DNA from: Haliclona indistincta
Taxonomy: Eukaryota; Porifera; Demospongiae; Haplosclerida; Chalinidae
NCBI GenBank assembly: GCA_964017065.1
Contig: OZ024789.1
Coordinates: 11,757,669-11,821,668, forward strand
DNA: 64,000 nt
Reading direction: 5' to 3'
Positions 1,337 through 63,170 of the stretch are shown here, piece by piece. How positions within the stretch are numbered: position 1 is the first letter of the stretch; every line of letters starts with the position of its first letter. The notes beneath the pieces were generated by a model. It searched no databases. It was not told where the DNA came from and was given only the letters and a program-made list of their open reading frames with translations. Position numbers and translations under genes: made by a program.

Positions 1337-2176
1337 TTATGACTTTCTAATCTTTGAGGAACTGCCTGCTGACTCTTCCTTATCTTCATCATCACTTTCA
1401 TTTCTGCATGTATTAATAACTTTTTATCAGTCAAATTAAGCAGCTTACCTTTCATCTGTTTGCTGTTCAACTGGAAGAGGTCGTTTTAGATGTGCTCTTC
1501 TCTGAACATCATCTAGTACTTCATCCTCCCAAGCTTCTTCAATGAGCTTATGAGTTTCCTCGTCACGCTCAGAGAGAGCAACTCTGGTTTTTTCATATGC
1601 TTGCTGTAGTTCATATTTTAGGTGTTGATTGGGAGCTTGTTCCAGTAAGTATTCATACATTTTTTCAGTCTCCCACTTTTGTAATTTGAAGCCATTTTCA
1701 ATGAGCTGCTCGTAACCCTCTTGACCATCAGATTTCCTATATGGGTATTTATGAACCCAGGAGAAGTGTATCACTGGTTTAGGCAATGATCCATCTTTGT
1801 ATCTTTCAACCAAAGCTTTTGCGCACTTATCTGTACAAGGTGAGTAGCTTATTCCAATGCTGTGTATTGTGCACAAGCACTCTGGAGACATGGCTATAAA
1901 TTTCTCCTCTGCATGAGTACCCTTGTCAGAAACAAGCACTTCTCCCACAATCACACCTTTATTGTCCTCTTGATACAAAGCTGTCACCCAAGGAAGATAA
2001 TATGGATATTTGCTAGGGTCTGTGAAAGTACCAGGTCCATATTTTTCTAAGATGCTCCTAATGCTTCCTTTAACTAGTGGTTCTCTATTCCTATCATGGA
2101 GTTCAGCTCCAGTGAACATAGCACAGACTAATTTCTCCCATTTTTCTCTTTCAAGTTGAGGTGTTGCCATTGACAA
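1337..2176 (-). CDS. Intracellular-type AID/APOBEC-like deaminase, intact (two exons)
   Basis: Exon 1 is 2176-1449 and exon 2 is 1403-1337. The donor GAAAG|GTAAGC and the acceptor before AATGAAAGTG keep the frame and add an acidic tail (NESDDEDKEES...). The zinc/catalytic motif is H88-A-E90, then S112-P113-C114-x3-C118, followed by VIHFSWVHKYP and the GFKLQKW strand, the order and spacing of the AID/APOBEC fold. There is no signal peptide, so it should act in the cytosol or nucleus. A basic patch (RRAHLKRPLP) near residues 226-236 could be a nuclear signal. Expected chemistry is zinc-dependent C-to-U/dC-to-dU deamination of a polynucleotide; the substrate is unknown. Its promoter has been separated from the conserved upstream region by the retrotransposon at 2348-6795. 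Confidence 0.8.
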
Positions 2177-2352
2177 TCAACTTACATGTAGCTCACTTAA
2201 TCCAATGACTTTGTAAGTAAGACGCTTCGGCACATACACGAGACTAAGCTTCAACAGAAACTGATGTGCTGTAGCTACTATAGCTATACGTACTTGTAAA
2301 GCACTTACACTAATACTAGTAAGGACAAGTGCTTGCTTTAATAAGCTATGGC

Positions 2353-2598
2353 TGTGGTGACTCTGTTAATGTGACTCTGTTATTTGTGTTGATTAGTTGT
2401 GTTTTGTAATATCTCTCATGAGAACAGTCTTTGTGTTAATTTATGTCTAATGTGTAGAATGCTGACTGTCTGTCTGTCTGTTCATTTCACACTGTTCTCC
2501 CTATTTAAGCCCTGGTAGTTTTTGTACATTTTTAGTTCAGTTCTTGGTTTGTACTTGCATTGTTGAGTTAATACAAATATTTTAAGTACGATATCACA
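2353..2598 (+). repeat. 5' LTR of the Ty3/Gypsy element
   Basis: The 246-bp repeat matches 6545-6790 throughout by eye. It contains a (ctgt) run near 2467-2482 and a possible TATA-like 'ctatttaag' around 2501-2509, the likely promoter region. Confidence 0.95.
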
Positions 2599-2628
2599 TT
2601 TGGCGACGAGAGTAAAGAACTCACAGCT

Positions 2629-5600
2629 ATGGCTGCAGTTTATGGAAAGCTACAGGAATTTCAACCTGAATCAGAGTCAATCAAGGCCTACCTGGAAAGA
2701 GTGACACTGTACTTCAAGGCTAATACCATCGATGACGACAAGAAAGTACCAATACTACTGAGTTCCATAGGATCATCGACGTACGCCACTCTTAGTGATC
2801 TCCTCGCACCAGATACCCCAGGAACTAAGTCCTTCGAAGAAATTTCAACAAAGTTGAATGACCATTTTCTGCCCAAAAGATCGACCATAGCAGAGAGATT
2901 TCAATTCCACAAGCGAAATCAAGAAGTAGGCGAAAGTGTAGCCGAGTACGACGCCGCGCTGAGGAAGTTGGCAGTCAACTGCAAATTTGGCACCGTGCTA
3001 CAGGAGACGCTACGTGATCGTTTTGTGTGTGGTCTACGACACGAAGCTATCCAACGCCGACTACTGTCTGAAACAGCATTAACGTACGCCAAGGCAATTG
3101 AGACAGCCAGAGCTATGGAAGCTGCTGACCAAGACACCCGAGCCTTCAAAAGACCAGACTTATCAGTGCACAAGCTGAGTAAAGGTCGTTTTCAGAAGAG
3201 CAAACCGCAGACAAGCACTACCAAGCACAATCGTGATCAGCAACAACCTTGCTACAGATGTGGACGCTCAAACCATGGTTCAAGCGAGTGCAAATTTAAA
3301 GATGCTCAATGCCACGCCTGCGGAAAGACAGGACACATTGCATCGGTTTGCCGCTCAAAGGCCTCCTCCGTTTCCAAGAAACAAAAGTCGAAGACGCACC
3401 TCGTACAGAATGCTGAACAGTCTTCAGAGGAGAGCAGTGATGAAGGTTTCAAAATACACAACCTGGTCAAGCGATCACCTGACCCTATAGTAGTCCAGTT
3501 GCAACTCAACGGAAAATTTCTCGACATGGAAGTCGACACTGGAGCAGCTCTATCAGTGATATCCGAAGCAACTAGACGTGACGTATTCCCCAATGACACA
3601 TTGCATCCTTCCAATCTGATCCTCAAGACATACACTAACGAACGAATGGAAGTTACTGGTACTCTCAACATGCGAGTCAGATATGGAAATCAGAAACAGA
3701 AGCTAGTACTCGTAGTGGTCGCTGGTGATGGACCAAGTCTTCTGGGAAGAAATTGGCTCAAGTACCTACGCCTGGACTGGAGCAACATTTTTGCAGTACG
3801 TGCAGCAAGAATATCACTAGTGGACGACCTACTTGAGAAGCACAAACCACTATTCTCAGATGAACTGGGGAGTGTCAAGCCATTCACAGCCTCACTTCAA
3901 ATACAATCTGATGCTACCCCTCGCTTCTTCAAGCCAAGACCAGTACCTTATGCAATCAAAGAAGCAGTTAGCCAAGAAATCAGTCGTCTGGAGGAACAGG
4001 GGATCATCTCACCAGTCTCACATAGTCAATGGGCTGCCCCAATTGTAGTAGTTCCAAAGAAAGATGGACGTTTCAGACTCTGCGGAGACTACAAAGTAAC
4101 TGTGAACCAAGCGATGAATGTGGAAGAGTACCCTTTGCCGACACCTGAAGAATTATTCTCGACACTGTCTGGAGGAAAAATCTTCTCGAAATTGGATCTT
4201 TCTCAAGCTTACCTCCAAATCCCAGTGGATGAGTCATCAAAACCCTATCTGACAGTCAACACGCAGCGAGGACTCTACGTCTACAACCGTCTTCCATTTG
4301 GAGTCGCATCTGCACCTGCTATATTTCAGAGAATCATGGACACTGTGCTGCAAGGAATCGACGGAGTAGCATGCTACATTGACGACATCCTCGTTAGCAG
4401 TCCAGATGAAGAGAGCCACAGACGAAGTCTACAGGAAGTGTTCACTCGTCTTGAGAATCATGGGTTCCGACTCAAGAGAAGTAAGTGTGAATTTTTGTTG
4501 ACCAGTATTGAGTACTTGGGTCATAGAGTCGATGAGCATGGCATACACCCACTATCATCTAAGGTAGAAGCTATTGTGAATGCACCTGCCCCTGAGAATG
4601 TGCAACAGCTTCGGTCATTCTTAGGATTAGTGAATTACTATGGAAAGTTCATACCCAATCTAGCCTCCCGATTACATCCCTTGAATGCCTTACTTTCTGC
4701 TCGTCAGAAATGGAATTGGTCCAAAGAATGTACTAGAGCATTTGAAGATGTTAAAGAGCAAATTGTGTCAGCAGGTGTACTAACTCATTACAATCCTAAG
4801 CTTCCTATCACACTAGCAGCAGATGCTTCAGCATATGGTGTAGGAGCAGTGATTTCTCATGTGCTACCAGATGGTAGTGAACATCCCATAGCATTTGCCT
4901 CACGCACTCTGACCACTAGTGAACGCAACTACGCCCAGATTGAGAAAGAAGCTTTGTCTTTAATCTTTGGCATCAAGAAGTTCCACAGGTTTCTGTATGG
5001 ACGCAAGTTCCTCCTGATAACGGATCACAAACCGCTGGTGGCAATTCTGGGACCCAAGAAAGGGATACCGTCGTTGGCAGCAGCTCGACTGCAGCGATGG
5101 GCTGTGATTCTGTCAGCATACAACTATGACATCAAATACAAGTCCACTGATGATCATGGGAACGCTGATGGACTCTCACGGTTACCACTGCCACAAACAA
5201 GTCCTACTTGTGACACAAATAATGCTATCTCCACATTTAACATAGGTCAAGTTCAAGCTCTTCCTGTAACCTTTCAAGAGATCCAACAAGCAACTCGGCG
5301 AGACGCGTCACTGAGTAAAGTTTTGCAATACGTCCAACAAGGTTGGCCAGGACAAGTGGACAGAGAGCTACAGACCTTCTTCGACAGACAGACCGAACTG
5401 AGCACAGAGAATGATTGCCTATTGTGGGGAATAAGAGTTGTCGTTCCAGAGAGCCTTCAACGCAGAGTACTAGATTCTCTTCATGCCAATCACTCAGGTA
5501 TTACTCGAATGAAAGCCACTGCACGCAGTCATTTTTGGTGGAAAGGACTAGATGGAGACATCGAATCAATGGGAAAATCCTGTTACATGTGTCAGTCCAA

Positions 5601-6528
5601 TCAGTCTAGCCCAGCAGCAGCACCTCTTCATCCATGGATTTGGCCCGACGCACCATGGAGACGAATACACATTGATTTTGCGGGACCCTTCTTAGGACAC
5701 ATGTTCTTCGTAGTCGTGGATGCCCATTCAAAGTGGCCCGAAGTAGTAACAATGAAGTCAACAACTGCTGAGAAGACAATTGAAGTCATGAGAGCTCTGA
5801 TAGCACACCATGGAATTCCTGAACAAGTAGTATCAGACAACGGACCACAATTCACTTCAGATGAGTTCAAGCAATTTATGGAAAGGAATCGAATCAAGCA
5901 CATACTTTCCGCACCTTACCATCCTGCTTCCAATGGACTTGCAGAGAGGTTCATTCAGACTTTGAAACGAGCGCTGAAAGCCAGTGACAAATCGAAAAGA
6001 TCTATTCATCATCGTCTGGCAGAATTCTTGTTTGAATACAGAGCAACGCAACATAGCACTACAGGTGTATCACCAGCAGAGTTATTTCTGAAGCGCAAGC
6101 TAAGGACTCGTTTTGACTTGATGCATCCTGATCCCAAGAAGCAAGTGATGTCGAAACAAGCTAGTCAGAAACTTCACCACGACACTCATGTTAAGGCTCG
6201 TGCTTTTACACCTGGAACTCGTGTGTTAGCTAGACTCTATATTGGTTCTGACAAGTGGATACCTGGAATCGTTATACAGCAATTGGGTCCAGTAACCTAC
6301 ACTGTTCAGATCTCCAATGGACGAATCGTCAAGCGACATGTCAATCAACTTCAACCTCTTCATGGAAATCAAGAGTCATCGGACACAACTGAATCGGACA
6401 CTGTGTTAGACAATCAATGCTATCCTCCTGTTGAACCTGTCCCTGAACCACAAGTTCCAAACGAACCTGAACGTCGATATCCTCTGAGGAATCGCCATCC
6501 ACCTATTCGATTTCAACCTACTTCCTAA
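2629..6528 (+). CDS. Gag-Pol polyprotein of a Ty3/Gypsy retrotransposon, intact
   Basis: One 1299-residue frame with no gag-pol frameshift. In order: Gag (about 1-200); two CCHC zinc knuckles (about 208-242, C-x2-C-x4-H-x4-C each); aspartic protease with DTGA near residue 303; reverse transcriptase with YIDD at 583-586; RNase H with ADAS near 730 and TDHKP near 800; integrase with an HHCC zinc domain (about 951-990) and a catalytic D,D-x35-E core (IDFAGP, SDNGPQF near 1069, E in the AERFIQ block near 1105). It makes virus-like particles and cDNA and inserts it. All signature residues are present, so it may be active. The retroelement frame is unrelated in origin to the surrounding deaminase cluster. 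Confidence 0.96.
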   Translation: MAAVYGKLQEFQPESESIKAYLERVTLYFKANTIDDDKKVPILLSSIGSSTYATLSDLLAPDTPGTKSFEEISTKLNDHFLPKRSTIAERFQFHKRNQEVGESVAEYDAALRKLAVNCKFGTVLQETLRDRFVCGLRHEAIQRRLLSETALTYAKAIETARAMEAADQDTRAFKRPDLSVHKLSKGRFQKSKPQTSTTKHNRDQQQPCYRCGRSNHGSSECKFKDAQCHACGKTGHIASVCRSKASSVSKKQKSKTHLVQNAEQSSEESSDEGFKIHNLVKRSPDPIVVQLQLNGKFLDMEVDTGAALSVISEATRRDVFPNDTLHPSNLILKTYTNERMEVTGTLNMRVRYGNQKQKLVLVVVAGDGPSLLGRNWLKYLRLDWSNIFAVRAARISLVDDLLEKHKPLFSDELGSVKPFTASLQIQSDATPRFFKPRPVPYAIKEAVSQEISRLEEQGIISPVSHSQWAAPIVVVPKKDGRFRLCGDYKVTVNQAMNVEEYPLPTPEELFSTLSGGKIFSKLDLSQAYLQIPVDESSKPYLTVNTQRGLYVYNRLPFGVASAPAIFQRIMDTVLQGIDGVACYIDDILVSSPDEESHRRSLQEVFTRLENHGFRLKRSKCEFLLTSIEYLGHRVDEHGIHPLSSKVEAIVNAPAPENVQQLRSFLGLVNYYGKFIPNLASRLHPLNALLSARQKWNWSKECTRAFEDVKEQIVSAGVLTHYNPKLPITLAADASAYGVGAVISHVLPDGSEHPIAFASRTLTTSERNYAQIEKEALSLIFGIKKFHRFLYGRKFLLITDHKPLVAILGPKKGIPSLAAARLQRWAVILSAYNYDIKYKSTDDHGNADGLSRLPLPQTSPTCDTNNAISTFNIGQVQALPVTFQEIQQATRRDASLSKVLQYVQQGWPGQVDRELQTFFDRQTELSTENDCLLWGIRVVVPESLQRRVLDSLHANHSGITRMKATARSHFWWKGLDGDIESMGKSCYMCQSNQSSPAAAPLHPWIWPDAPWRRIHIDFAGPFLGHMFFVVVDAHSKWPEVVTMKSTTAEKTIEVMRALIAHHGIPEQVVSDNGPQFTSDEFKQFMERNRIKHILSAPYHPASNGLAERFIQTLKRALKASDKSKRSIHHRLAEFLFEYRATQHSTTGVSPAELFLKRKLRTRFDLMHPDPKKQVMSKQASQKLHHDTHVKARAFTPGTRVLARLYIGSDKWIPGIVIQQLGPVTYTVQISNGRIVKRHVNQLQPLHGNQESSDTTESDTVLDNQCYPPVEPVPEPQVPNEPERRYPLRNRHPPIRFQPTS

Positions 6529-6544
6529 CTTAAGGGGAAGGAGA

Positions 6545-7166: not shown

Positions 7167-8475
7167 TCAGTTGAATCTTCCTTCATTTTTCTTCCTGGAA
7201 GCAATAATTTTAACTCAGTCGTACACAGCATCAATTCACTTACTTCATCTTGGATTTATGTAAGATACTGTTGGTTGTTACAACTGCTTGATAATCTTCA
7301 CACGTTTGCCTAATAGTCAATCTTAATGTCCCTCTCTTCTTCGTTATTTCAGGATCTTGAATACTCTTTCCCTAATGAACGAGAGTGATAGAATAAAGCA
7401 TTTTTGTGCGTTAGTGCATGCAATTGGCACTCACTTTGAAATATTTGTAACTGGACACCCACTGACCAAGTACATGTAGTAAAAATCCAAATAGCACTAC
7501 AACTGCTAGAAAATGATTAAAAGGCAGACTGCAGCAAGTCGAGGCTCGGCCAAAATACATGAATGAATTCGAAGATGCTGATGAAAATGGCTTCTTATTA
7601 CTTAAGCTACTGTAGCAGTTATAGCATGTTCCACCTCCTCCAGTCCCTCCAGTAGTTCCTCCAGTCCCTGGTCCATCGTCATCGTCTTCATCATTGTGTC
7701 TTGAATGATTTCCCCAGCCATACCAATATGCATATTCCTCTTCATCTTCATCAGTTTGATTTCTATGATTTGGCTCACTTACTGAATCAATCAATTCCTG
7801 AGTCTTTTTGTCACGTTCGGAAAGAGCGTCATGTGTGTTATGGTATGCTTCCAGCAGTTCTTCTTTCAGTTCATAGCTAGGAGAATGCTGAAGTAAGTAA
7901 AGTAATAGTTGCTCTGTTTCCCAAACTTTCACTTTGAATCCATGCTTAATGAGATATCTGATATAATGAAGACTAATGTTTGATCTTGGATATTCATGGA
8001 CCCAGCAGATGTATATTATTGGTCTTGTAGAATAACTGCAAAAGTTAATAATTGTAACCGCACAATCGTAACATGGTGAGAAGCTTGTCACAATGTTGTG
8101 TACATCATGATGATCTTTCAATAGAATATTGCGGATAATTTTTTTCTCAGCATGCGAATCAGAACCACTAAAAGACGCATGCTTGATACTACTGTCATGA
8201 GAAGACTCGGCATACGATGCTGTTAGACTAGGAAAGTATCGATATGTAGGATCTTGTTGAATGTGCTCCTCCATTAGCCAATCACTGCTGTGATTAGATA
8301 GAATTTCTAATATCTCTCCTTGAATCAGTAACTGTCCATTACTATCTGACAATATTGCTCCAGTGAAGAAGGCACTCACTAGATTTTTCCACTCTCTTTC
8401 TTCAAGTTGATGAGCAGGTATGCATGCAACCAGCAAAAGAACCACTGCACAACAGGCTATTTTCGAAACATGCAT
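7167..8475 (-). CDS. Membrane-anchored AID/APOBEC-like deaminase, intact (three exons)
   Basis: Exons 8475-7435, 7371-7244 and 7194-7167 join in frame at GT-AG sites. Residues 1-22 form a signal peptide (CAVVLLLVAC core). The deaminase core has H108-A-E110, x23, P134-C135-x2-C138, then IYICWVHEYP and GFKVKVWET. An acidic stretch (DEDEEEYAYWYGW...DEDDDD) and a Gly/Cys/Ser-rich stalk follow. A hydrophobic helix (about 320-338) comes next, and then a basic tail ending KKKNEGRFN. Predicted topology: deaminase outside the cell or in the lumen of the secretory pathway, tail in the cytosol. The intron donor CAAA|GTGAGT lies just after the helix, so translation of exon 1 alone gives a false short end. 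A small repeat-protein gene lies about 600 bp upstream. The near-identical paralogue is 24349-25674. Confidence 0.82.
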
Positions 8476-10648: not shown

Positions 10649-12604
10649 TTATGTTGCTTGTTGGCCGTTTCCTGCTCTTGCTTGTTTCCTGAAATTTAGA
10701 ACTGTCATGATACATGTACAGTAAATAGAACATCTTTTTACAAGTTACCTTTTCTGTATGATGCTGTTGGTTTTCTCAATTGATCGAGAAGCTTCACATT
10801 TTTGCGACCTGGCAAAATTCTTAATAGTTTCAGGTTCTTTAAAACCATCTTCGAATTTCTAATGTGCATGTAATGAGATAGCAACAACAGATGAAGGCAT
10901 TTTTGTGCATTGGTATTTGCAATTTGTACTCACTTTGAGCGGTTTGTAACTTGACACCCATAGACCAACTAGTGCTAATGCACCTGCTAGAAAATGATTA
11001 CAAGACCAACTGCAGCATGTCGAGGCTCCAAAGCCCAATGATGAAGATGATGAAAATGCCTTCTTTTTACTAGAGCTACTGAAACAATTACAGCATGTTC
11101 CACCTCCTCCAGTCCCTCCAGTAACTCCTCCAGGACCTGGTTCATTATCATCGTCTTCATCATGACGTCTAGAGTAATTATTCCAACCATACCAGTATGC
11201 TTCTTCATCATCTTCATCAGTCTGGTCATTTTCATCTGAACCGCTTTTTATCAATTCTATTACTCGCTGTGTCTCCATGTCACGCTTAAAAATAGCATCG
11301 CTTGCACTTTCATATGCTTCCGATAGTTTGTCTCGGAGTTCAGTGCTAGGAGCATGCTCTAGTAGATAGTTCAGTACTAGGAGCATGCTCTAGTAGATAG
11401 TTCAGTACTAGGAGCATGCTCTAGTAGATAGTTCAGCACTAGGAGCATGCTCTAGTAGATAGTTCAGTACTAGGAGCATGCTCTAGTAGATAGTTCAGCA
11501 CTAGGAGCATGCTCTAGTAGATAGTTCAGCACTAGGAGCATGCTCTAGTAGATAGTTCAGTACTAGGAGCATGCTCTAGTAGATAGTTCAGTACTAGGAG
11601 CATGCTCTAGTAGATAGTTCAGTACTAGGAGCATGCTCTAGTAGATAGTTCAGCACTAGGAGCATGCTCTAGTAGATAGTTCAGTACTAGGAGCATGCTC
11701 TAGTAGATAGTTCAGTGCTAGGAGCATGCTCTAGTAGATAGTTCAGTGCTAGGAGCATGCTCTAGTAGATAGTTCAGTACTAGGAGCATGCTCTAGTAGA
11801 TAGTTCAGTACTAGGAGCATGCTCTAGTAGATAGTTCAGTACTAGGAGCATGCTCTAGTAGATAGTTCAGTACTAGGAGCATGCTCTAGTAGATAGTTCA
11901 GTACTAGGAGCATGCTCTAGTAGATAGTTCAGTACTAGGAGCATGCTCTAGTAGATAGTTCAGTACTAGGAGCATGCTCTAGTAGATAGTTCAGTACTAG
12001 GAGCATGCTCTAGTAGATAGTTCAAAACTTTCCTTGTTTCCCAAACTTTAACATCAAATCCATGTCGAACGAGGGCTCTGATGTGCTGAAAACCATCAGA
12101 CGATTTCGGATGTTGATGGACCCAGCAGATGTATACTATCGGTCTCGGATGATAAACATTCAACTGTTCAAAAATTTTGTCAGCACAGCAGTCACATGGA
12201 GAGAAGCTTATTACAATACAATGTACATCATGATTATCTGATGAAATCTTACGAACAACTTTATTATCAGCATGTGGTTTATGCTCTTTACCACTACTGA
12301 AGGACACATGCTTGATACTGCCATCAGAACACTCTCCAAATGAAGCTGTTAGCCTAGGAAAATATTGCCGATGGATGGGATGTCGTTTATCATGCTTTCT
12401 TATTTGCCAGTCATTGGTATTGCTAGCCAAAATATTAAGTATTTCTCCTTGGATCAGAAATATTCCATTACGATCAGTCAGCCTGGTTCCTGTAAAAAAA
12501 GCACTCAATATTTTCTTCCATTCTTTGGTTTTAAGTTGATGAGCAGGTGTAGCAACCAGCAACAGACCGAACACTACAAGATGGACTAGTTTCAAAACTG
12601 GCAT
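10649..12604 (-). pseudogene. Membrane-type deaminase interrupted by a 31-bp repeat array
   Basis: Exon 1 starts at 12604 with a signal peptide (VFGLLLVATPAHQ). It runs through the core and is broken at ..NYLLEHAPSTEL by 22 copies of a 31-bp unit. The gene then resumes at DKLSEAYESASD and continues to the Gly-rich stalk, helix and donor at 10933. Tail exons are 10858-10749 and 10688-10649. Since 31 is not a multiple of three, the array reads through all frames and meets in-frame stops, the first right after ELSTRACS. The motif reads H-A-D instead of H-A-E (gat for gag), so the catalytic glutamate is also lost; the PCDCC zinc ligands remain. Compare the paralogues 57433-58729 and 61842-63170. 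Confidence 0.85.
11337..12018. repeat. 31-bp minisatellite, exactly 22 copies, inside coding sequence
   Basis: The unit is agttcag[t/c][a/g]ctaggagcatg followed by ctctagtagat. 22 x 31 = 682 bp, followed by a terminal agttca (12019-12024). Units differ mainly at two positions (tgc, tac or cac before tagg). In the intact paralogue at 58123 the same 31 bp occur once between two agttca hexamers, which gives a simple slippage origin. Confidence 0.97.
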
Positions 12605-15105: not shown

Positions 15106-15129
15106 GCGATCGCTGATCTCTGTAGCAGA

Positions 15130-15844
15130 CAGGGCCGGCGCCATAGGGGCGGCCGGGACGGCCATGGCCGCCCCACTTTTTCAAGAAAAGTGATTAATAT
15201 TCATCAATTATTAGTACCACACCTACTTACCACACCTATTCTAATAATTGATTAGCTCGATGGTTCGTTGGTCGCTAGCGAGCGCTGCGCAGGTCGCACA
15301 CATAGCAGCTAGTTTACATGCTACAGCCTCTACAGTCTGCGAGTTCTACAATGGTGACTTGTGCAAGGCGCAGTTAGAAGCACAACTCCCACTGCTGCAA
15401 CCGATCTGTTCTGAAATGAAGGAGACCACAATTCATGATATCATCGAAATCCTTTCTGGTTTATCGCCACCAGAACGAGTAGCGTTATCCTCTGTGTGGA
15501 CTGCTATGAAGCTGTTGCTTGTAATGCCAGCCACAAACGCGACTTCAGAGCGATCTTTCTCAGCACTGAGAAGAATTAAAACTTACCTCCGCTCTACGAT
15601 GTCTCAACAGAGGCTCAACAGCTTGATGGTTCTACATGCCAACAAAGAGAAAACGGATTCCCTGGACTTAGTCCAGGTGGCCAGGGAGTTCGTCGTTGGG
15701 CGCGAAGGACGACAACGCACATTTGGCGACTTTAAACAATAATGAATAATAATGCATTTCTTTAATTAATTCATGATTAATTCAATGAATAATTTAATAA
15801 TTAATTAGGGCCTCTCCACTATGTTTTAGCTGGCACCGGCCCTG
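15130..15844 (+). mobile_element. Internally deleted hAT transposon with 8-bp target duplication
   Basis: The 715-bp element has termini cagggccggcgcca and, inverted, cagggccggtgcca (13 of 14 matching). It is flanked by the 8-bp duplication gtagcaga (15122-15129 and 15845-15852), the size typical of hAT. It keeps only the C-terminal part of a transposase. Confidence 0.93.
15260..15742 (+). pseudogene. hAT transposase C-terminal fragment (dimerisation domain)
   Basis: From the first ATG at 15260 the frame encodes about 160 residues. The block PATNATSERSFSALRRIKTY...STMSQQRLNSLMVLHAN is the well-known hAT C-terminal dimerisation region, here of the TTF/ZMYM-like type. The upstream DNA-binding zinc finger and RNase H-like catalytic core are missing, so it cannot cut DNA. 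It lies inside the TIRs at 15130 and 15844, so it was carried as an internal-deletion derivative. A dominant-negative or domesticated role cannot be excluded, but nothing supports it. Confidence 0.85.
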
Positions 15845-16374: not shown

Positions 16375-17278
16375 TTACTGAGCTATATCAATCTTTCCTG
16401 GACACTTTTGAGGTCCTTCCTCTGATACACTTTCTGCGGTGCCTCCTTTGTCTTCATCACTGTCACTATCATCGTGTTTAATCTTTTTAAATACTGGTCC
16501 ATCATCTTCTCTGTCTTCCTCATCACATACACTCTCTTGCCCATTTTGCTTCTGTGGATATAAGGATCTAATTAGTCGATTTGTATCCCAGTCATGTCGA
16601 TCAAGTGCATGTTTTATTTCAACATTTTCATGTGCTTGCTGTAGTTCATCGTGTAGTTCTTGACCAATTGAATCATGTTGTTTAGCTTGCTGCAACAAAT
16701 AATTAATCATTTTCCCACAGTATCCAAGCTTTTTAAAATGAAGTCATGTTTAACTAAGTACCGAATAGTACACCGTGCCATGCAGTCTTTTGGATAATTA
16801 TGAACCCAAAAGAAGCGGATCGCAGGTTTAGGTGCTTTTAGTTCTTCATTCTTTTTCACAATCTTTACTGCACACTTCTTCTCTTCTCCTCTTCTCTCCT
16901 CTCCTTGCTTATGATGCTCTTCATAGCAAGGAGAGTAGTTTAGCCCAATGATACGCACTAATAGCAGATCTTTTTCCGGCATGTCCAAAGGTTGCTCTTC
17001 TGCATGCTCACCATGTCTAGAGAAAATCACTTTCTTAACTTGAAGTTGTAAATATCATCTTTTTCGTCTTCAATATGGAACAAAGCTGTCACACGTGGGA
17101 AGTATTGATAATCACGATTTGATAACTTCCTACATGTAGGATAGTTGTGGTTTGTTTCTAAGATCTCTCTGATTTGTCCTTGAACTAGAAGTCCTCCATT
17201 CCCATCTGAGAGTTCAACTCCAGTGAACACAGCACAGACCAATGTCTTCCATTCATCTCGAACACAGTGTGCCTCCAT
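16375..17278 (-). pseudogene. Intracellular-type deaminase with two frameshifts
   Basis: Three overlapping frames form one deaminase. 17278-17027 covers MEAHC...FTGVELSDGNGGLL. 17030-16707 carries HAEEQ, NYSPC and RFFWVHNYP. 16710-16375 holds the helical C-terminus and a long acidic/basic tail (FKKIKHDD..., probable nuclear signal). Frames change by one base at about 17030 and 16710. The zinc site is also distorted: after SPC there are ~16 residues of EEHHKQGEERRGEEKK before the next Cys, where 2-3 are usual. The upstream element is degenerate (gtgaatcagca near 17391). Read as a decayed copy. Confidence 0.7.
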
Positions 17279-17814
17279 AACAGAAAGGAAACAGCCTATG
17301 CTTGCAATGTTTCACAAAATCTAACAAGAGCTGTAGTATTTATAGGCACTAAAGAACTAGGTGTGTGTCAGTTACATCCCCTAACGTGAATCAGCAAAAA
17401 TGTAGGTATATGATTTTTTTACATTCGTAACAGGACATTCATGACATAATATTTTACTATTCATTGATTTTGGTATAGAATTCAACATTATTCATTAAAT
17501 TTTTCTAAAAATAAATAATTATAGTATAATTAATAAACTAGCTACCTTCTGTATGTGTGTGACCTAATAATTGAGCAACTGCCTTGTTCAATCATTGTAG
17601 TAAGAGTATTATTATAAACAATAATTTTATCACTATAATTATCGTTGTTTGCATATTGACGCTACGTACCAACAATATTACCGAAGCTCAATTTTCTCTG
17701 AGTATTGCTCTGTTCTTCATATCATGGCAACTCCATTTTCGGCTTATTCCCAAAATATTTATCTATTTATTTCAATTCTTGCCCGGTCTGGTTTCTGCTT
17801 ATAAAATCAGTTTT

Positions 17815-19398: not shown

Positions 19399-20276
19399 CT
19401 AATCCTTATCTTCAACTTCGTCTTCATCATCGGTCTTATTCCTGTATTTTATATCAATAACATGCTATATATAATAATTTTTGTTCAGCCAAAAACATCT
19501 TACCATGGAGCAATGCGCTTTTGGGCAGGTTCTTCTGGAGTGGAAGATGGCATGTTTTTTCTTTTGCGAGCAGCATTCCTTGCATCATCGATGAGTTGTT
19601 TAGTTCTTTCGTCACGAGCAGAAAGAGCCTCAGCTGTGCTTTCATGTGCTTGTTCTAGTTCACGTTTTAGCTTTTTTGAACGAGCTTGTTCCCGCAAGTA
19701 TTCATACATCTTTTTCGTATCCCAAACTTTCAAGTCAAAGCCATTTTCAATGAGGCGCTCGACACCGACCATACCATCATCATCTTGCATGTAAACCCGA
19801 CTGAAGTGTATCACCGGCTTCTTCAAATGTTCTCCTTCGCGATTGTATCTTTCTATAATACCAGATGCACATCTTTTTGTACAAGGTGAGTTGTTTAATC
19901 CGATACTATGTACTAATCGTAGCTGTTCTGTGTCCTTCTTTATAAGTTGCTGCTCTACATGCTCTTTATATGCTTTAGAAGCAAGCACCAACACTTTCTT
20001 CATCTTTCCTTTCACTTTGAAATCTTGGGGAATGATTTCATCTTGGTCATTCATTTGATACATATATGTTACAGTAGGCCAATATTCAAATCCCTGTAAT
20101 TTTAAATTTTCAGGATTTTGGCACTTTGTTTTCAAGATATCCCATATCTCTCCTTCAACAAGCAGTTCTCCATTCTCATCAGAGAGTACAGCTCCAGTGA
20201 ACATAGAACAGACCAATTTCTTCCATTCTATTTTGAATATTTTTTTGCCTTGTTTAGCCGACATTTCAGACCGCAA
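19399..20276 (-). CDS. Intracellular-type deaminase, intact, acidic second exon
   Basis: Exon 1 is 20276-19504 and exon 2 is 19441-19399. CCATG|GTAAGA joins to GAATAAG in frame and gives a terminal NKTDDEDEVEDKD. The core reads ..EHVEQQ (H-V-E, Val in place of the usual Ala), NNSPC-x3-C, VIHFSRVYMQ (the usual SWVHN is changed), and GFDLKVWDT. The helical region ELEQAHESTAEALSARDE and a basic patch (ARKRKNMPSS...EEPAQKR) follow. Catalytic residues are present, so it may be active. The changed WVH loop, which borders the active site in the AID/APOBEC fold, may alter substrate choice (inference). The start MRSEMSAKQ has a second Met at residue 5. Confidence 0.78.
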
Positions 20277-21608: not shown

Positions 21609-22379
21609 TTAGAACACTCCTCTCAAAGGGTCACTATCTACTGTTTTATTAGCTTTTTCAATGAGCCTTTGTGTTACCATGTCTCGATCAGAAAGAGCCG
21701 CCATTAATGATGTGTTTTCGTATGCTTGCTGTAGTTCGTGTTTCAGTGTTTCATTAGGAGTTTGTTCCTGTAAGTATTCATACATTTTTTCAGTCTCCCA
21801 CGTTTGTAAGTTGAAGCCGTTTTCAACGAGATGCTCGATACCATCTTGCCCATGAGGTGTCCTATATGGGTGATTATGAACCCAGGAGAAGTGTATTACT
21901 GGTTTAGGCAATGATTCTTCTTTGTATCTTTCAACTAAAGCTTTTGCGCATTCATCTGTACAAGGTGAGTAGCTTATTCAAATGCTGTGTATTGCACACA
22001 AGTGCTCTGAAGACATGGCTATAGGTTGCTTCTCTACGTGAGTACGTATACCATTGTCAGAAACAAGCACTTTTCCCACAATCACACCTTTGTTGTTCTC
22101 TTGATACAAAGCTGCCACGCAAGGAAGATAATAAGGTCTACTAGGGTCTGTGAAAGTACCACGAGATCCGTAATCTTTTAAGATGCTCTTAATACTTCCT
22201 TCAACTAGCGGTTCTCCATTCCTATCATAGAGTTCAGCTCCAGTGAACATAGCACAGACTAATTTCTCCCATTCAACTTCACTAGGTTGAAGAGCAGCAG
22301 CAGCAGCAGCAGCAGACATTTTCAATTCAGAATCAGAACAGTTTCTACTGCAGTGTTCGGCAACAGTATCAGCACTCAA
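21609..22379 (-). pseudogene. Intracellular-type deaminase with one nonsense codon
   Basis: One frame runs from MSADTVAEHC at 22379 to the end, interrupted only by TGA at 21980-21978. Here paralogues have GGA (HSIGISYSPC becomes HSI-stop-ISYSPC), a single G-to-T change. Downstream the frame is otherwise open, with the SPCTDEC zinc ligands, VIHFSWVHNHP and GFNLQTWET. The active site is THVEKQ (H-V-E). An alternative start is the internal MSAAAAAAALQ, whose Ala run is a GCT/GCA repeat. The break falls just before the zinc-binding Cys pair, so a truncated product would be inactive. Stop readthrough is possible but untested. Confidence 0.8.
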
Positions 22380-27207: not shown

Positions 27208-28790
<1,583 letters not shown>

Positions 28791-28949
28791 CGTTTCAGTA
28801 GAAATTGTGTGTCGGATGGTAGCTACAATTATCAGTAGCTTTAGAGAACTGAAACACTGCCAAGTGTTAGCTACTAGTGAACCACACCTTGAATACAACA
28901 CTGGAATCAGGTGGTCTGTACTGATAATATTATTTCAGGGAAAGACCCG

Positions 28950-32467: not shown

Positions 32468-32510
<43 letters not shown>

Positions 32511-41232: not shown

Positions 41233-48245
<7,013 letters not shown>

Positions 48246-48261
48246 GATGGAGGAGGAAGAA

Positions 48262-49825: not shown

Positions 49826-50165
49826 ATGATTCTTCTTTGTATCTTTCAACAATAGCTTCTGCACATTCATCTACACTAGATGAGCAGCTTATTATGCACT
49901 GATTGCAAGTGCCCTGAAGACATAGCTATAAGTTACTTCCGCTGTACGTGAGTACCTCTGTCAGAAACAAGCGCTTCTCCTGAGTGTGTGGTCCTCTTCA
50001 TACAAAGCTGTCACGCAAGGGAGATAATAAAGATATTTATTAGGGTCTGTTAAAGTACCATGAGATCCATATTTTTCTAAGATTCTCCTAATACTTCCCT
50101 TAACTAGTGCCGGTTCTCCATTCCTATCATAGAGTTCAGCTCCAGTGAACATAGTACAGACTAAT
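49826..50165 (-). pseudogene. Intracellular-type deaminase relic fused to a membrane-type tail
   Basis: The minus strand reads MFTGAELYDRNGEPALVKGSIRRILEKYGSHGT...YYLPCVTALYEED from 50152, then decays. A degraded SPC block (ctacactagatgagcagctt) is near 49885. At about 50165 the sequence switches, within the LVC-MFTG block, to the C-terminal tail of the membrane-type copy 50180-51185. A deletion or unequal crossover between the two architectures explains this. Confidence 0.65.
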
Positions 50166-50179
50166 AATGTAGTAATAAT

Positions 50180-51185
50180 CCAATTAACGCTACAACTGCT
50201 AGAAAATGATCAAAAGGCAGACTGCATGCAGCACATCGAGGCTTGGCTAGAACCCTTGAATGAAGATACTGATGAAAATGTCTTCTTTTCACTTAAGCTA
50301 CTGTATCAATTATGGCATGTTCCGCCTCCTCCATTCCCTCCTCTAGTCTCTCCAGGACCCGGTTCATCATCATGCATAGTCTTTATCATGGTGTTTTGAA
50401 TGATTTCCCCAGCCATACCAATATGCGTCTTCCTGTTCATCTTCATCAGACTAGTCTGATTTTATGATTTGGCTCGCTTTCTGAATCGATCAATTCCTGA
50501 GTCGTGACTCTTGTTGTCACGTTCAGAAAAAGCGCCATCACATGTGTTATAGTATGCTTCCAGCAGTTCTTCTTTTAGTTCATAGCTAGGAGAATGCTCT
50601 AGTAAGTAAAGTAATAGTTGCTCTGTTTCCAAAACTTTCACTTGAATCGCGATCCATGCTTAATGAGATATCTGATATATTGAAGACTAATGTTTGATCT
50701 TGGATATTCATGCACCATGCATGCAGCAGATGCATATTATTGGTCTTGTAGAATAACTGCAAAGGTCTAACCGCACAATCGTAACATGGTGAAAAGCTTG
50801 TCACAATGTTGTTCACATTATGATGATCCTTCAATAGAATATTGCGGATAATTTTTTCCTCAGCATGTGAATCAGAACCACTAAAAGACACATGCTTGAT
50901 ACTACGGTCACAAGAAGACTCGGCATACGATGCTGTTAGACTAGGAAAGTATCGATTTGTAGGATCTTGTTGAATGTGCTTCTCCATTAGCCAATCACTG
51001 CTGTGATTAGCTAGAATTTCTAATATTTCTCCTTGAATCAGTAACTCTCCATTACCGTCTGACAATATTGCTCCAGTGAAGAAGGCACTCACTAGTTTTT
51101 TCCACTCTCTTTCTTCAAGTTGATGAGCAGGTATGGCGACCAGCAAAAGAACCACTGCACAACAGGCTATTTTCAAAACAGGCAT
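50180..51185 (-). pseudogene. Membrane-type deaminase, frameshifted
   Basis: The start at 51185 gives a good signal peptide (CCAVVLLLVAIPAHQ), the N-terminal strands, SHAEEK and FSPCYDC. It then breaks: the segment after YDCAV has small indels near 50765 (VITIINFCS lost) and near 50650. The stalk (50440-50300) and helix remnants (LLLENDQK... on the other strand) remain readable. It ends at the chimeric junction with the intracellular-type relic. No small repeat gene precedes it; an intracellular-type copy does. Confidence 0.7.
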
Positions 51186-51509: not shown

Positions 51510-52107
51510 AGTTAAGTTTAGAACGACACTCCTCTCAAAGGGTCACTATCTACTGTTTTCTTAGCTTTTTCAATGAGCCTTTGTGTTTCCATGTCTCGTT
51601 CAGAGAGAGCTGCCATTACGGGTGATTATGAACCCAGGAGAAGTGTATCACTGGTTTAGGCAATGATTCTTCTTTGTATCTTTCAACTAAAGCGTTTGAG
51701 CATTCATCCGTACACGGTGAGTAGCTTATTCCAATGCTGTGTATTGCACACAAGTGCTCTGAAGACATGGCTATAAGTTGCTTTTCTACGTGAGTACCAC
51801 TGTCAGAGGCAAGCACTTTTCCCACCTTGTTGTTCTCTTGATACAAAGCTGTCACGCAAGGAAGATAATAAGGTCTACTAGGGTCTGTGAAAGTACCACG
51901 AGATCCGTAATCTTCTAAGATGGTCTTAATACTTCCTTCAACTAGTGGTTCTTCATTCCTATCATAGAGTTCAGCTCCAGTGAACATAGCACAGACTAAT
52001 TTCTCCCATTCAACTTCACTAGGTTGACGAGCAGCAGCAGCAGACATTTTCAATTCAGAATCAGAACAGTTTCTACTGCAGTGTTCGACAACAGCATCAG
52101 CACTCAA
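51510..52107 (-). pseudogene. Intracellular-type deaminase with internal deletion
   Basis: Close paralogue of 21609-22379, with the same MSADAVVEHCSRNC start and TDECS zinc ligands (HVEKQ, SPCTDEC). No nonsense codon is present here. After VIHFSWVHNHP it jumps directly to MAALSERDMETQRLIEK out of frame. About 55 codons (PYRTPHGQDG...QQAYENTS) are deleted at 51615, so the substrate-binding strand is lost and translation stops right after HNHP. Confidence 0.8.
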
Positions 52108-56026: not shown

Positions 56027-56877
56027 TCACACAGTCTCAAATTCCTGTATCAAGAAAATAATTACCATAAACATAGATATTTTCCTTGTGCAGGTATAGC
56101 TTACCTTTTGAGCAGCTGGTCGTTTTTTACCAGGTTCTTCTAGAGCAGTTCGCTTTCGATTTTTTTTCTCCGCTCTTCATCTACCATTTTCTTAGCTTCT
56201 TCAATGAGCTCTTGAGTCTCTATATCACGTTTAGAGAATTTCAAACTCATGTTATCATATACTAGCTTTAGCTCATGTTTCAGTGATTCATTAGGAGCTT
56301 GTTCAAGTAGGAAATGAACTATTCTTGTTGTCTCCCAAACTTTTAAGTTGAAGCCATTTTCGATAAGGAGCTTGATGCCATCTCGACCATGAGGTTTCCC
56401 ATTTGGGTGATTATGAACCCAGGAGAAGTGTATCACTGGCTTAGGCAAGGCTTCTTCTTCTTCACCTCTTCTGTACTTATTGACAATAGCATCTGCACAT
56501 CTTCCTGTACAAGGTGAGTAGTTTAACCCAATACCATGCACTGAACGTAGATGATCAGGAGTCTTTAATAAAAATCGCTTCTCTGCAAGCTCACTAGTAC
56601 TGCATGAAAGCACTTCTCCCATGATCACACCTTGATAATTCTCTTGATACATAACCGCGACAAAAGGTAGATATATGTATTTGCTATTGCCAGTTTGCTC
56701 TATATTGAAGTTTGTATTTTCTTGCAAGATATTCAAGATACTTTCTTCAGGCGAAGAGTCGAATAGCATTAGTTGACCCGAGCTATTGTAGAGTTGGACT
56801 CCAGTAAACATAGCACAAACTAATTTCTCCCATTCTTCTTTGGTAAGTTTATCAGTGGTTGGTATAGCGAGGCTCAT
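56027..56877 (-). CDS. Intracellular-type deaminase, catalytic His replaced by Leu
   Basis: Exon 1 is 56877-56105 and the 18-bp exon 2 (56044-56027) codes EFETV. The frame is open for 244 residues. The zinc ligand and catalytic motif read ELAEKR, Leu for the expected His (ctt for cat), while SPC-x3-C, VIHFSWVHNHP and GFNLKVWET are kept. It should not bind zinc normally, so it is probably catalytically dead, perhaps a decoy or regulator. Near 56158-56166 a run of eight A/T, one short of the number that keeps frame, diverts translation to ESELL-stop. It thus misses the KRTALEEPGKKRPAAQK basic tail and the second exon; this could be a sequencing slip. Neighbour: membrane deaminase 57433-58729. 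Confidence 0.7.
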
Positions 56878-57027: not shown

Positions 57028-57038
57028 ATGACTCAGCA
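57028..57038. promoter_or_regulatory. ATGACTCAGCA element
   Basis: Exact match 151 bp upstream of the start at 56877. Confidence 0.55.
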
Positions 57039-57432: not shown

Positions 57433-58729
57433 TCATGCTCTCTTAATTCTTGCTTGTTTCCTGAAATTTAGAACTGTCATACATGTGCAGTAAATAGAAC
57501 ATCTTTTTACAAGTTACCTTTTCTGTATGATGCTGTTGGTTTTCTCAATTGATCGAGAAGCTTCACATTTTTGCGACCTGGCAAAATTCTTAATAGTTTC
57601 AGGTTCTTTAAAACCATCTTCGAATTTCTAATGTGCATGTAATGAGATAGCAACAACAGATGAAGGCATTTTTGTGCATTGGTATTTGCAATTTGTACTC
57701 ACTTTGAGCGGTTTGTAACTTGACACCCACAGACCAACTAGTGCTAATGCACCTGCTAGAAAATGATTACAAGACCAACTGCAGCATGTCGAGGCTCCAA
57801 AGCCCAATGATGAAGATGATGAAAATGCCTTCTTTTTACTAGAGCTACTGAAACAATTACAGCATGTTCCACCTCCTCCAGTCCCTCCAGTAACTCCTCC
57901 AGGACCTGGTTCATTATCATCGTCTTCATCATGACGTCTAGAGTAATTATTCCAACCATACCAGTATGCTTCTTCATCATCTTCATCAGTCTGGTCATTT
58001 TCATCTGATTCAGAACCGCTTTTTATCAATTCTATTACTCGCTGTGTCTCCATGTCACGCTTAAAAATAGCATCGCTTGCACTTTCATATGCTTCCGATA
58101 GTTTGTCTCGGAGTTCAGTGCTAGGAGCATGATCTAGTAGATAGTTCAAAATTTTCCTTGTGTCCCAAACTTTAACATTAAATCCATGTTGAATGAGGGC
58201 TCTGATGTGCTGAAAACCATCAGACGATTTTGGATGTTGATGGACCCAGCAGATGTATACTATCGGTCTCGGATGATAAATATTCAACCATTCAAATATT
58301 TTGTCAGCACAGCAGTCACATGGAGAGAAGCTTATTACAATACTATGCACATCATGATTTTCTGATGAAATCTTACGAACAACTTTATTCTCAGCATGTG
58401 ATTTATGCCCTTTACCACTACTGAAGGACACATGCTTGATACTGCCATCAGAAAACTCCCCAAATGAAGCTGTTAGCCTAGGAAAATATTGCCGATGGAT
58501 GGGATGTCGTTTATTATGCTTTCTTATTTGCCAGTCATTGGTATTGCTAGCCAAAATATCAAGTATTTCTCCTTGAATCAGAAATCTTCCATTACCTTCT
58601 GTCAGCCTGGTTCCTGTAAAAAAAAGCACTCACTAATTTCTTCCATTCTTTGGTTTTAAGTTGATAAGCAGGTGTAGCAACCAGCAAAAGACCGAACACT
58701 ACACAACAGACTAGTTTTAAAACTGGCAT
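57433..58729 (-). pseudogene. Membrane-type deaminase with a homopolymer frameshift
   Basis: Exons 58729-57703, 57627-57518 and 57460-57433 are readable. The signal peptide (CVVFGLLLVATPAYQ) and KTKEWKKLVSAFF are followed by eight A/T at about 58618-58625, where two paralogues have seven, which shifts frame inside FFTG. After it all is intact: SHAENK, FSPCDCC, IYICWVHQHP, GFNVKVWDT, the DEDDEEAYWYGW acidic stretch, the Gly/Cys/Ser stalk, the helix LAGALALVGLWV and a tail KFEDGFKEPETIK...IQKRKQARIKRA. If the extra base is an error, this is a complete gene. Its bZIP-like element has lost bases (gaactactcagca near 58849). Confidence 0.75.
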
Positions 58730-59629: not shown

Positions 59630-60359
59630 TGCTGTGAAGATCAGAATTTCAGTCAACTGGTAAACGAATTTCTCAAAAAGTACGGAAAGAGACGAGTTAT
59701 GCTTATTCACTCTGCTTTTATTTGGTTGCCGAGAAGCATGGATGGTGTGACTCTATAATGATAATTATTCATCACTGTGGGTATCACAGGAAGTAATGAA
59801 TATTCAGAAAGTAACAATATCCTAGGAAGACCAACTTCCACATACAGTAGTATTCACTGCAGAGAAGTTGACACTTCACTGCTATTATGACTGCAGGTGC
59901 ATAATACTGTAATCTACAAAAACTGATCATGATTGGATAAACCTTTAGCTGTTTCAGTGATACTGTAGTTCCAGTAAAACTTCGGTGTAGACTAGAGATA
60001 TACTCAGGTCAAAATTAATGGATACAATTATCAATCTTTGAATTCTATAGTACCAATTGACCACTTATTCAGACTATTTTCAATGCTCATTCAGTAGTGT
60101 CCCAGGGAGAGTCCGTCATTAGCTAAAATTCTAGGTGACGTTCATTACTATTTATAGTAACATAACAGTGACATCATAATGAATATAATAGTGTTGGAAT
60201 GATTATGTTTGCAGTATAGTAAATTGATCCTTTTGAAAATAATTGTTGCGTTAAACATCCCAGTGCTGACAAAATATTTCAAAAACAATTTCAGTAATTC
60301 AGATGATTTATTTAAAATGATTTACAAACGGTATTTAAATTGTCATACTGCAGACTTTT

Positions 60360-61060: not shown

Positions 61061-61239
61061 TAAATTCTCGGTTTTGATTATCTATTCACTCATGGCGGTC
61101 CTTCACTATAGCGCAACACACTTGTACACAAAGCAGGCTAAATTTTAACATAGAACAAGGTGAAATCTTTGCCCATTGCCCGAGTCCCTCTACGGCTTGC
61201 TCTAGCAGGATCATAAGTCCTGCAGTTGCCGACTATCCT

Positions 61240-61316
61240 GCATACCATATCACTGCTAGTTTCTTCCATTCTTCTTTGGTAAGTTTATCACTGGTTGGTA
61301 TAGCAAGGCTCATTTC
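61240..61316 (-). pseudogene. N-terminal fragment of an intracellular-type deaminase
   Basis: From 61315 the minus strand reads MSLAIPTSDKLTKEEWKKLA, matching the start of 56027-56877, and then stops matching. An ATGACTCAGCA element stands at 61480-61490, 165 bp upstream, as expected. It shows that the intracellular/membrane/small-protein triad once existed in this block too. Confidence 0.7.
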
Positions 61317-61479
61317 ATAACAGAATCAAGTACTCTCTTTCCAAAGTTGGCAGTTGGAGAACACTGAGAAGCTATTCTACTAATAAAGTACTTACAGCAC
61401 TTGAGAACTAAGTGTCAACCTAGTATAATACTATAAGTATACTCAGTGAGCGTATCCTATAGCAACTGTATCACATGCA

Positions 61480-61490
61480 ATGACTCAGCA
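61480..61490. promoter_or_regulatory. ATGACTCAGCA element
   Basis: Exact match upstream of the truncated copy at 61240-61316. Confidence 0.5.
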
Positions 61491-61841
61491 AAGTGGAGGT
61501 GTGCTAATGTTTTGCTAATGGAGCTCTATTCCCATAACAGTGCATTCATGACATTGCTATCATTCATTGATTGTGGTACAGTAAATCATTACTATTTCAT
61601 AAGATCGGATACTCATTTACAAGTGCTATAAAAATATACCTCAAATACACTTGCTAGCTGCTTGCCTTCTGCTTGCTGCTGAGTGGTTGATTGTTTAACA
61701 TATTAACATAAACAATAAACAACAACATTTCACATAAACAATACTGATCAACAACAACAACAGTCAAAATAACGATCACGGATGATTGGATACACACTGC
61801 AAACTTCTAATTAGCTAACATTATAACTTTGTTGTTAATTC

Positions 61842-63170
61842 TTATAGGCTGCGTACTATATTATGTAACTTTGCTTGTTGGCCGTTTCCCGCTCTTGCTT
61901 GTTTCCTAAAATATAGAACTGTCATACATGTACAGTAAATAGAACATCTTTTACTAGTTACCTTTTCTGTATGATGCTGTTGGTCTTCTCAATTGATCGA
62001 GAAGCTTCACATCTTTGTGATCTGGCAAAGCTCTTAGTAGTTTCAGGTTTATTAAAACCATCTTTAAATTTCTAATGTGCAAGGTAATGAGATAGCAACA
62101 ACAGATGAAAGCATGTTTGTGCAATGGTATTTGCAATTTGTACTCACTTTGAGCGGTTTGTAACTTGACACCAACAGACCAACTAGTGCTAATACACCTG
62201 CTAGATAATGATTACAAGACCAACTGTAGCGTGTTGAGGCTCCAAAGCCCATTGATGAAGATGATGAAAATGCCTTCTTTTCACTAGAGCTACTGAAACA
62301 ATTACAGCAAGTTCCACCTCCTCCGGTCCCTCCAGTAGCTCCTCCAGGACCTGGTTCATTGTCATCATCGTCTTCATCATGACGTCTAGAGTAATTATTC
62401 CAACCATACCAGTATGCTTCTTCATCATCTTCATCAGTCTGGTCATTTTCATCTGAACCGCTTGTTATCAATTCTATTACTCGCTGAGTCTCCATGTCAC
62501 GTTTAAAAATAGCATCGCTTGCACTTTCATATGCTTCCAATAGTTTGTCTCGGACTTCAGCACTAGGAGCATGCTCTAGTAGATAGTTCAAAACTTTCTT
62601 TGTGTCCCAAACTTTAACATCAAATCCATGTCGAATGAGGGCTCTGATGTGCTGAAAACCATCAGATGATTTAGGATGTTGATGGACCCAGCAGATGTAT
62701 ACTATCGGTCTCGGATGATAAACATTCAACCGTTCAATAATTTTGTCAGCACAGCAGTCACATGGAGAGAAGCTTATTACAATACTATGTACATCATGAT
62801 TATCTGATGAAATCTTACGAACAACTTTATTCTCAGCATGTGATTTATGCCCTTTACCACTACTGAAGGACACATGCTTGATACTGCCATCAGAACACTC
62901 CCCAAATGAAGCTGTTAGCCTAGGAAAATATTGCCGATGGATGGGATGTCGTTTATCGTGCTTTCTTATTTGCCAGTCATTAGTATTGCTAGCCAAAATA
63001 TTAAGTATTTCTCCTTGGATCAGAAATCTTCCATTACCATCTGTCAGCTTGGTTCCTGTAAAAAAAGCACTCACTAATTTCTTCCATTCTTTGGTTTTAA
63101 GTAGATAAGCAGGTGTAGCAACCAGCAACAGACCGAACACTACAAGACAGACTAGTTTCAAAACTGGCAT
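61842..63170 (-). CDS. Membrane-anchored AID/APOBEC-like deaminase, intact (three exons)
   Basis: Exons 63170-62148, 62071-61962 and 61905-61842. I chose the Met at 63170 (MPVLKLVCLVVFGLLLVATPAY, a clear signal peptide) over one 10 codons upstream, because all paralogues start there. The core has SHAENK (H-A-E), VISFSPC-x2-C, IYICWVHQHP and GFDVKVWDT. An acidic DEDDEEAYWYGW..DEDDDD block follows, then a Gly-rich and Cys/Ser-rich stalk, the helix LAGVLALVGLLV, and a tail ending RKQARAGNGQQAKLHNIVRSL. It is the only undamaged member of its subgroup (relatives 10649-12604 and 57433-58729). Predicted cell-surface or lumenal deaminase; substrate unknown. Confidence 0.82.

Follow-up and report, generated by a model that had tools for sequence, protein, structure and literature searches.

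A tandem array of AID/APOBEC-like deaminase genes in the sponge Haliclona indistincta, with predicted membrane-held and intracellular types

Reviews describe an early animal split into secreted SNADs and intracellular classical AID/APOBECs, and APOBEC3 is known as a multi-copy tandem expansion. SNADs are reported as a sister clade of the classical AID/APOBECs with unknown activity (PMC8201067), and SNAD4 as a sponge clade of secreted AID/APOBEC-like deaminases (PMC11004436, PMC8201067). Fish SNAD1 is described as carrying a signal peptide in 26 of 38 members, with an N-terminal region predicted to be membrane-anchored in six (PMC11004436), and sea urchin SpAIDL as having nine loci, some SpAIDL and LaAIDL enzymes being active in bacterial mutator assays (PMC5956068). 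Here we describe a tandem array of deaminase genes in the sponge Haliclona indistincta, on contig OZ024789.1 (C7) of assembly GCA_964017065.1 (144.03 Mb, 46 contigs). The window is the whole 64,000-nt stretch analysed, C7:11757669-11821668; coordinates up to 63170 are those of the window and larger ones those of the contig. The array holds two close AID/APOBEC types, A and B. From sequences and structural models we read them as probable C-to-U deaminases of single-stranded DNA or RNA, with type A predicted to be anchored in the membrane, its deaminase outside, and type B predicted to act inside the cell.

The family itself is already known: SNAD4-type deaminases have been reported from sponges. 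The array resembles SNAD4 (PF18750) in its profile match, the signal peptide of type A, the sponge host and the many lineage-specific copies. It differs in that half of the array (type B) lacks a signal peptide, in that type A has a predicted transmembrane segment and cytosolic exons, and in that A and B are often paired and are fused in two copies. With vertebrate AID/APOBEC3 (PF18767, PF18771) it shares the HxE..PCxxC site, the predicted fold, the tandem multi-copy arrangement and, in type B, the lack of a signal peptide, but identity is 8-17%, the C-terminal extensions are different and type A is predicted to face outward. Of the 28 matches listed, five type B proteins and an A2 fragment carry precomputed Inv-AAD (PF18785) labels, and APOBEC4_like (PF18774) is above its cut-off on type A1; however, no single Pfam clade takes in both types and the scores lie near the cut-offs. 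SpAIDL and LaAIDL, from sea urchin and brachiopod, are likewise invertebrate multi-copy AID/APOBEC-like enzymes, but the term 'signal peptide' is absent from the main text of PMC5956068. The predicted anchor of fish SNAD1 is N-terminal, whereas that of type A is C-terminal with a cytosolic tail. Judged by titles and the starts of abstracts, we recognised no C-terminally anchored or two-headed forms in the literature on invertebrate or sponge AID/APOBEC-like deaminases or on transmembrane forms, a scope outside which Krishnan et al. 2018 lies.

Ten window proteins were searched against Pfam profiles. The AID profile (PF18767) scored 34.1 bits on one type B protein (cut-off 27.3), APOBEC4_like (PF18774) scored 33.0 bits on type A1 (cut-off 26.7), and SNAD4 (PF18750) reached its 27-bit cut-off on one A1 copy. 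Six of the ten proteins exceeded the AID or APOBEC4_like cut-off; four, including both A2 copies, stayed under every cut-off and still matched AID/APOBEC-clade models. In whole-genome controls (14 genomes), AID matched in none, APOBEC4_like in one and SNAD4 in two, never above cut-off. Profiles from the PDB, AlphaFold2 models and structure searches placed both types in the AID/APOBEC fold. The predicted fold has a five-strand sheet and six helices in AID/APOBEC order, and an APOBEC or AID entry stood in all 50 VIA-align matches listed for the A model and for the B model alike; identity to such entries was 8-17% across the structural alignments. Collectively, profiles and predicted structures support the assignment of the array genes as AID/APOBEC-like deaminases. 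An earlier note on this DNA had read an AID/APOBEC signature from its motifs and had proposed a profile search and a structure prediction as checks; the six proteins above cut-off, the predicted strand order and the uniform VIA-align rows bear that signature out.

The motifs themselves are far from random. The strict pattern (H[AV]E, 17-32 residues, PC, 2-4 residues, C), scanned over six frames, matched at ten places in the window, all on the minus strand. A chance origin was ruled out because the pattern was absent from 100 dinucleotide shuffles. The W/R-V-H/Y strand was correctly spaced in nine of these ten places, compared to none in the 100 shuffles, and GFxxKxW occurred at nine places, again all on the minus strand. 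The shared H-[AV]-E, P-C-x(2-3)-C, W-V-H and GFxxKxW motifs reported in the earlier note are confirmed. Its count of at least 13 minus-strand loci holds as well, as tblastn with ten representative queries found 14 substantial loci and three fragments from 206 to 63170, every one on the minus strand. Seven of the loci are type A and seven type B, and the fragments are type B. Six of the 14 have a main exon that stays open throughout, starting at the ATG (1445-2170, 7435-8475, 19500-20264, 22974-23807, 56140-56877 and 62148-63170), and the zinc site (H, E and both C) is whole in all of these except 56140-56877, a type B gene with Leu in place of the zinc His (LAE). Rfam gave no match reaching gathering thresholds. 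Beyond the loci of the earlier note, the analysis brings out two interleaved architectures, a stalk with a transmembrane tail, and splice sites.

Type A proteins begin with a hydrophobic, signal-like start, followed by the deaminase, an acidic, Gly-rich and Ser-rich stalk and a C-terminal hydrophobic segment. In the intact A1 gene, exon 1 (62148-63170) encodes a predicted signal peptide, a deaminase with HAE and PCDCC, an acidic/Gly/Cys/Ser stalk and a weak transmembrane segment, and ends in AAA before the donor GTGAGT. Past a 76-nt intron, predicted exon 2 (61962-62071) is open in phase 0 and encodes a basic cytosolic tail, which ends in predicted exon 3 (61842-61905). The intact A2 gene has the same plan: exon 1 (7435-8475) with signal peptide, deaminase (HAE, PCYDC), stalk, transmembrane segment and AAA before GTGAGT, predicted exon 2 (7244-7371) with the basic cytosolic tail, and predicted exon 3 (7167-7194). 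Across the four A subgroups, the best N-terminal 12-mer had a mean hydropathy of 3.30-3.77. In 12 of the 13 frames first examined, GTGAGT came right after a final AAA or GAA of exon 1, the 13th being a member on C3; GTGAGT was found at 15 of 16 type A tail ends from the four subgroups, damaged copies included. Introns measured 50-76 nt, and 11 of 12 copies had an exon 2 that stayed open in phase 0. The spliced A1 and A2 models are 398 residues each with a basic tail, the exon-2 products of A2 and A3 look alike by eye, and positive charge was greater on the inner side in six models. Transmembrane hydropathy was 2.0-2.5 in the models other than A1. Cysteines in the stalk or tail comprise CCNC or CYNC..CC in the A1 and A2 stalks and two to three in the A3 tail, with none in five of seven type B tails. 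Since splice donors were found, we dropped a reading of type A as intronless and simply secreted. These features predict that type A is a type I membrane protein with its deaminase outside and a short basic cytosolic tail.

Type B proteins start straight at the deaminase and end in a short tail, with an isoelectric point above 9 in four of seven frames of this genome. Intact type B genes lie at 22974-23807 (HVE, PCTDEC; a basic tail, with the final codons spanning a GTAAGC splice donor), 19500-20264 (HVE, PCTKRC; a basic tail resembling a nuclear localisation signal) and 1445-2170 (HAE, PCTDKC; terminating at a GTAAGC donor). The first and last of these were noted as lacking a signal peptide, and by eye no hydrophobic N-terminus is present in the four open type B frames of the window, taken as read and leaving upstream exons aside. 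As the N-terminal signal peptide of SNADs was not found, type B was not filed with them. Type B is predicted to sit in the nucleus or cytosol. Type B-like deaminases at C20:2801-4048 and C7:11673199-11674236 carry a long RSVEEHQ-like repeat run that separates the HAE helix from the PC motif.

About 0.6 Mb from the window, two gene copies appear to join the types (C7:11107414-11109343 and C7:11155596-11157623). In the first, the A exon ends ...YRSIK directly before GTGAGT, the 64-nt intron ends CTGTCACTCTCTAG, and the B domain, whose first ATG falls within its first helix, is then open in phase. The predicted spliced product has 621 residues and runs from signal peptide through deaminase, stalk and transmembrane segment to a further deaminase. 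The 11155596 copy has a like arrangement, in which a 21-residue linker exon is duplicated together with its splice sites. Synonymous divergence (dS) is 0.004 between the A halves of the two genes and 0.080 between the B halves, and this near-identity of the A halves alone suggests gene conversion of the A half. Within the window, five of the seven type A copies are directly followed by a type B copy or fragment on the same strand, so that A and B seem to have been duplicated as a pair. The gene order at 12.846-12.836 Mb is A3-A1-A2-B. Spacing between A and B is ~0.65-0.8 kb in other pairs and 5 kb between the A2 gene and the next B gene. An open Ty3/gypsy-like gag-pol frame lies antisense between these two genes (2629-6528, plus strand), which would explain the 5-kb spacing. 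In two copies, then, the splice signals are predicted to join A and B as one protein that carries deaminases on both sides of the membrane, one from each type. Whether the fused gene is a two-headed membrane deaminase, with a nucleic-acid mutator on each face, the A-then-B order of the window being its split form and localisation modules being swapped among paralogues, is in our view an evenly balanced question.

The two types are ~31-41% identical. Genome-wide, type A queries found type B copies and vice versa, so A and B form one family. Protein searches listed 8, 28 and 9 proteins, apparently of this species and of one relative, and the trees cover this range. The first held 46 rows, 37 from this genome (34 on C7 at 9.37-12.85 Mb, two on C20 and one on C3). 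In the deaminase-core tree, type A is a clade (99/97), and A and B together are split (100/97) from a third deaminase group, a divergent one at 9.37-9.39 Mb. This group lies at C7:9373489-9391908, and its member at 9373489-9374949 has ~200 residues of QQAIDYQQ-type repeats ahead of the domain. One protein, P0016, apparently from a second genome, seems to combine features of both types. Its signal peptide is most like those of A3 and P0005 (45% each) and its Ser-rich tail most like that of A3 (62%), while its core (residues 60-150) is 33-69% identical to type B compared to 22-37% to type A rows; its predicted end lacks a strong hydrophobic segment (1.36). The core tree puts P0016 in B, and a single clade of signal-peptide bearers (A plus P0016) was not rejected (approximately unbiased test, p-AU 0.125). 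The reading of P0016 as a mosaic, with a B-like core between A-like ends, is therefore based on regional identity and is tentative.

The ratio of nonsynonymous to synonymous change (dN/dS) in the deaminase core was 0.20-0.83 for A pairs and 0.34-1.12 for other pairs. Tails gave 0.30-2.20 with few changes, and the whole A exons of the fused genes gave 2.77 (10 changes versus one). This pattern fits a functional core with relaxed tails. In type B, the L1, L3 and L7 stretches varied more than b4 or a4 did, and variability was also high at residues 35-57 and in the tail; in type A, a4 was the most variable element listed. The a4 of type A, with the type B variability outside the loops, speaks against a simple substrate-loop story.

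Several observations weigh against our interpretation of the array. Foldseek TM-scores by target length were only ~0.4-0.6. The type A signal peptide was called by hydropathy alone, and all splice models were built from sequence signals. The A1 transmembrane segment has a hydropathy of 1.3-1.5, below the usual threshold of 1.6; the C3 member of type A has neither hydrophobic tail nor donor; one damaged A1 copy reads GTGAAT at the donor position; and the usual acceptor leaves the A1 copy at 12841905 out of phase. The net charge of the type B core is zero or negative in six of seven frames of this genome and +1 in the seventh, unlike many nucleic-acid binders. Type B forms one side of a branch in just 10% of bootstraps, with the long row P0026 drawn beside A, and may thus be a grade rather than a sister clade. 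Pairwise dN/dS gave no clear sign of positive selection. Finally, four copies lack a zinc or catalytic residue (LAE, HAD and NAE twice), two of them otherwise open, suggesting that some copies may bind without editing. Some of these points suit the unlikely alternative that type A proteins are plainly secreted SNADs, whose hydrophobic C-terminus is removed or acts as a glycosylphosphatidylinositol (GPI) signal, the enzyme being released or lipid-anchored. The weak A1 segment and the C3 member, which lacks a hydrophobic tail, agree with it, as do the A1 and A2 tail cysteine groups, which are reminiscent of the SNAD cysteine cluster, and the description of SNADs as secreted in fish and sponges in PMC11004436 and PMC8201067. 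However, in each of the four A subgroups the hydrophobic segment gives way to basic residues and open exons, which a GPI signal would lack. We consider it quite improbable that type A proteins serve as receptors for nucleic acids instead of editing them, the fold capturing extracellular DNA or RNA while the cytosolic tail or, in the fused copies, the inner domain signals or internalises cargo. The predicted membrane topology and cytosolic tail of all four A subgroups would suit such a role, and in three A copies a zinc or catalytic residue is missing (HAD at 11966-12604; NAE at 12837405 and 12827336). Yet two of these three are also damaged elsewhere, HAE and PCxxC are retained in nine of the ten tail-bearing A frames listed, and the core dN/dS of all A pairs is below 1.

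The fusion has a rival of its own, in which the loci at 11.107 and 11.155 Mb each consist of two neighbouring but independent genes, the B domain being a 5'-truncated relic. A public annotation does start a B protein at the internal Met (P0014). Against this stand the consensus donor and acceptor in phase 0, the 256 codons over which B is open in both copies, a second linker exon, complete with both of its splice sites, in one of the copies, a B-half dN/dS of 0.40 and, by eye, a similar-looking EVSK motif repeated ahead of the B domain in P0017 from another genome; we take separate genes to be a minority possibility that deserves some weight. An ordinary metabolic cytidine or deoxycytidine monophosphate (dCMP) deaminase family, or another zinc fold, is hardly credible. 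PF00383 gave weak scores on six of the ten window proteins but was outscored by an AID/APOBEC-clade model in each, and among the 50 Foldseek matches listed for type B the sole dCMP deaminase came at rank 46, behind 45 APOBEC or AID rows; the profile scores and this ranking rule out a metabolic cytidine deaminase. Membrane-held type A and intracellular type B deaminases thus remain our preferred reading.

Eight of the 14 copies in the window are disabled, a pattern in keeping with birth-and-death evolution. Four carry frameshifts. The A1 copy at 57703-58729 is shifted near 58620, its signal peptide is out of frame, and its deaminase (HAE, PCDCC) is elsewhere open (predicted exons 2 and 3 at 57518-57627 and 57433-57460). 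The A2 copy at 50167-51185 was found by tblastn. The A2 copy at 24619-25635 has an open deaminase and tail and is out of frame in the signal-peptide region (predicted exons 24426-24553 and 24349-24376). The A3 copy at 27540-28794 has several frameshifts and retains GTGAGT at 27551; within it, a 65-copy TCA run (27803-27998) has lengthened the poly-Asp tract, giving one frame a very long run of acidic residues. Among type B copies, 51616-52047 is truncated past the W-V-H strand, the B-like copy at 16378-17311 lies in three frames (broken or intron-split), and 21609-22319 has one in-frame stop. The counterpart of the last in another assembly, P0023, lacks the stop, so its disabled state may be polymorphic. 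The protein P0013, annotated on a contig as long as the one that bears exact copies of window genes, finds at best an 85% match in this assembly (over residues 1-239), which suggests copy-number or haplotype variation. The type B fragments lie at 61188-61325 (N-terminal 48 residues; tblastn), 49964-50209 and 206-298 (tblastn). The eighth disabled copy, an A1 gene at 10934-12604, is split by a minisatellite, a 31-bp unit in 22 copies (11337-12024) inside the coding region. Its 5' half (11966-12604) is open from the ATG through the deaminase core, with a signal peptide and Asp for the catalytic Glu (HAD), and stops in the repeat array, which cuts off the rest; the 3' half (10934-11386) holds the stalk and transmembrane part and is followed by predicted exons 2 (10749-10858) and 3 (10649-10688). 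The 31-bp motif is single-copy in the intact gene at 62148-63170 and is repeated in other A1 copies, with 9 units at 12.827 Mb and 12 at 12.114 Mb. We rejected the array as a useful switch to a soluble form, the other array-bearing copies being damaged elsewhere too; that the array is spliced out was also considered and would be conjecture. The lineage-specific expansion under birth-and-death proposed in the earlier note agrees with the tree of copies and with the many dead copies.

Other elements lie among the deaminase genes. Two similar-looking blocks (29916-34830 and 41236-48176) with Death-like, ZU5-like and Kelch-like frames appear to be a segmental duplication within the array; in the first, ZU5 and Kelch were above Pfam cut-offs and Death below, and the second was compared by eye. 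The remnant of a hAT transposase C-terminal dimerisation domain lies at 15248-15739 on the plus strand.

By analogy with the family, a zinc-bound water would attack the base with Glu as proton shuttle, and the C-to-U deamination of single-stranded nucleic acid would take place outside the cell for type A and inside it for type B. Substrates would be foreign nucleic acids of viral, retroelement or microbial origin, which type A may meet at the cell surface or in endosomes and type B in the cytosol or nucleus, while duplication, gene conversion and loss would renew the gene set. An immune role is what we infer from these parallels. The array suggests that secreted and intracellular forms can arise from a single gene cluster. 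Because both locations are predicted for close relatives in one array, location may be a module that is readily swapped and not a deep divide. Intact genes of this kind in an early-branching animal bear on the roles of AID/APOBEC proteins before antibodies, and the array bears on the possibility of a mutator that acts at the surface of the cell.

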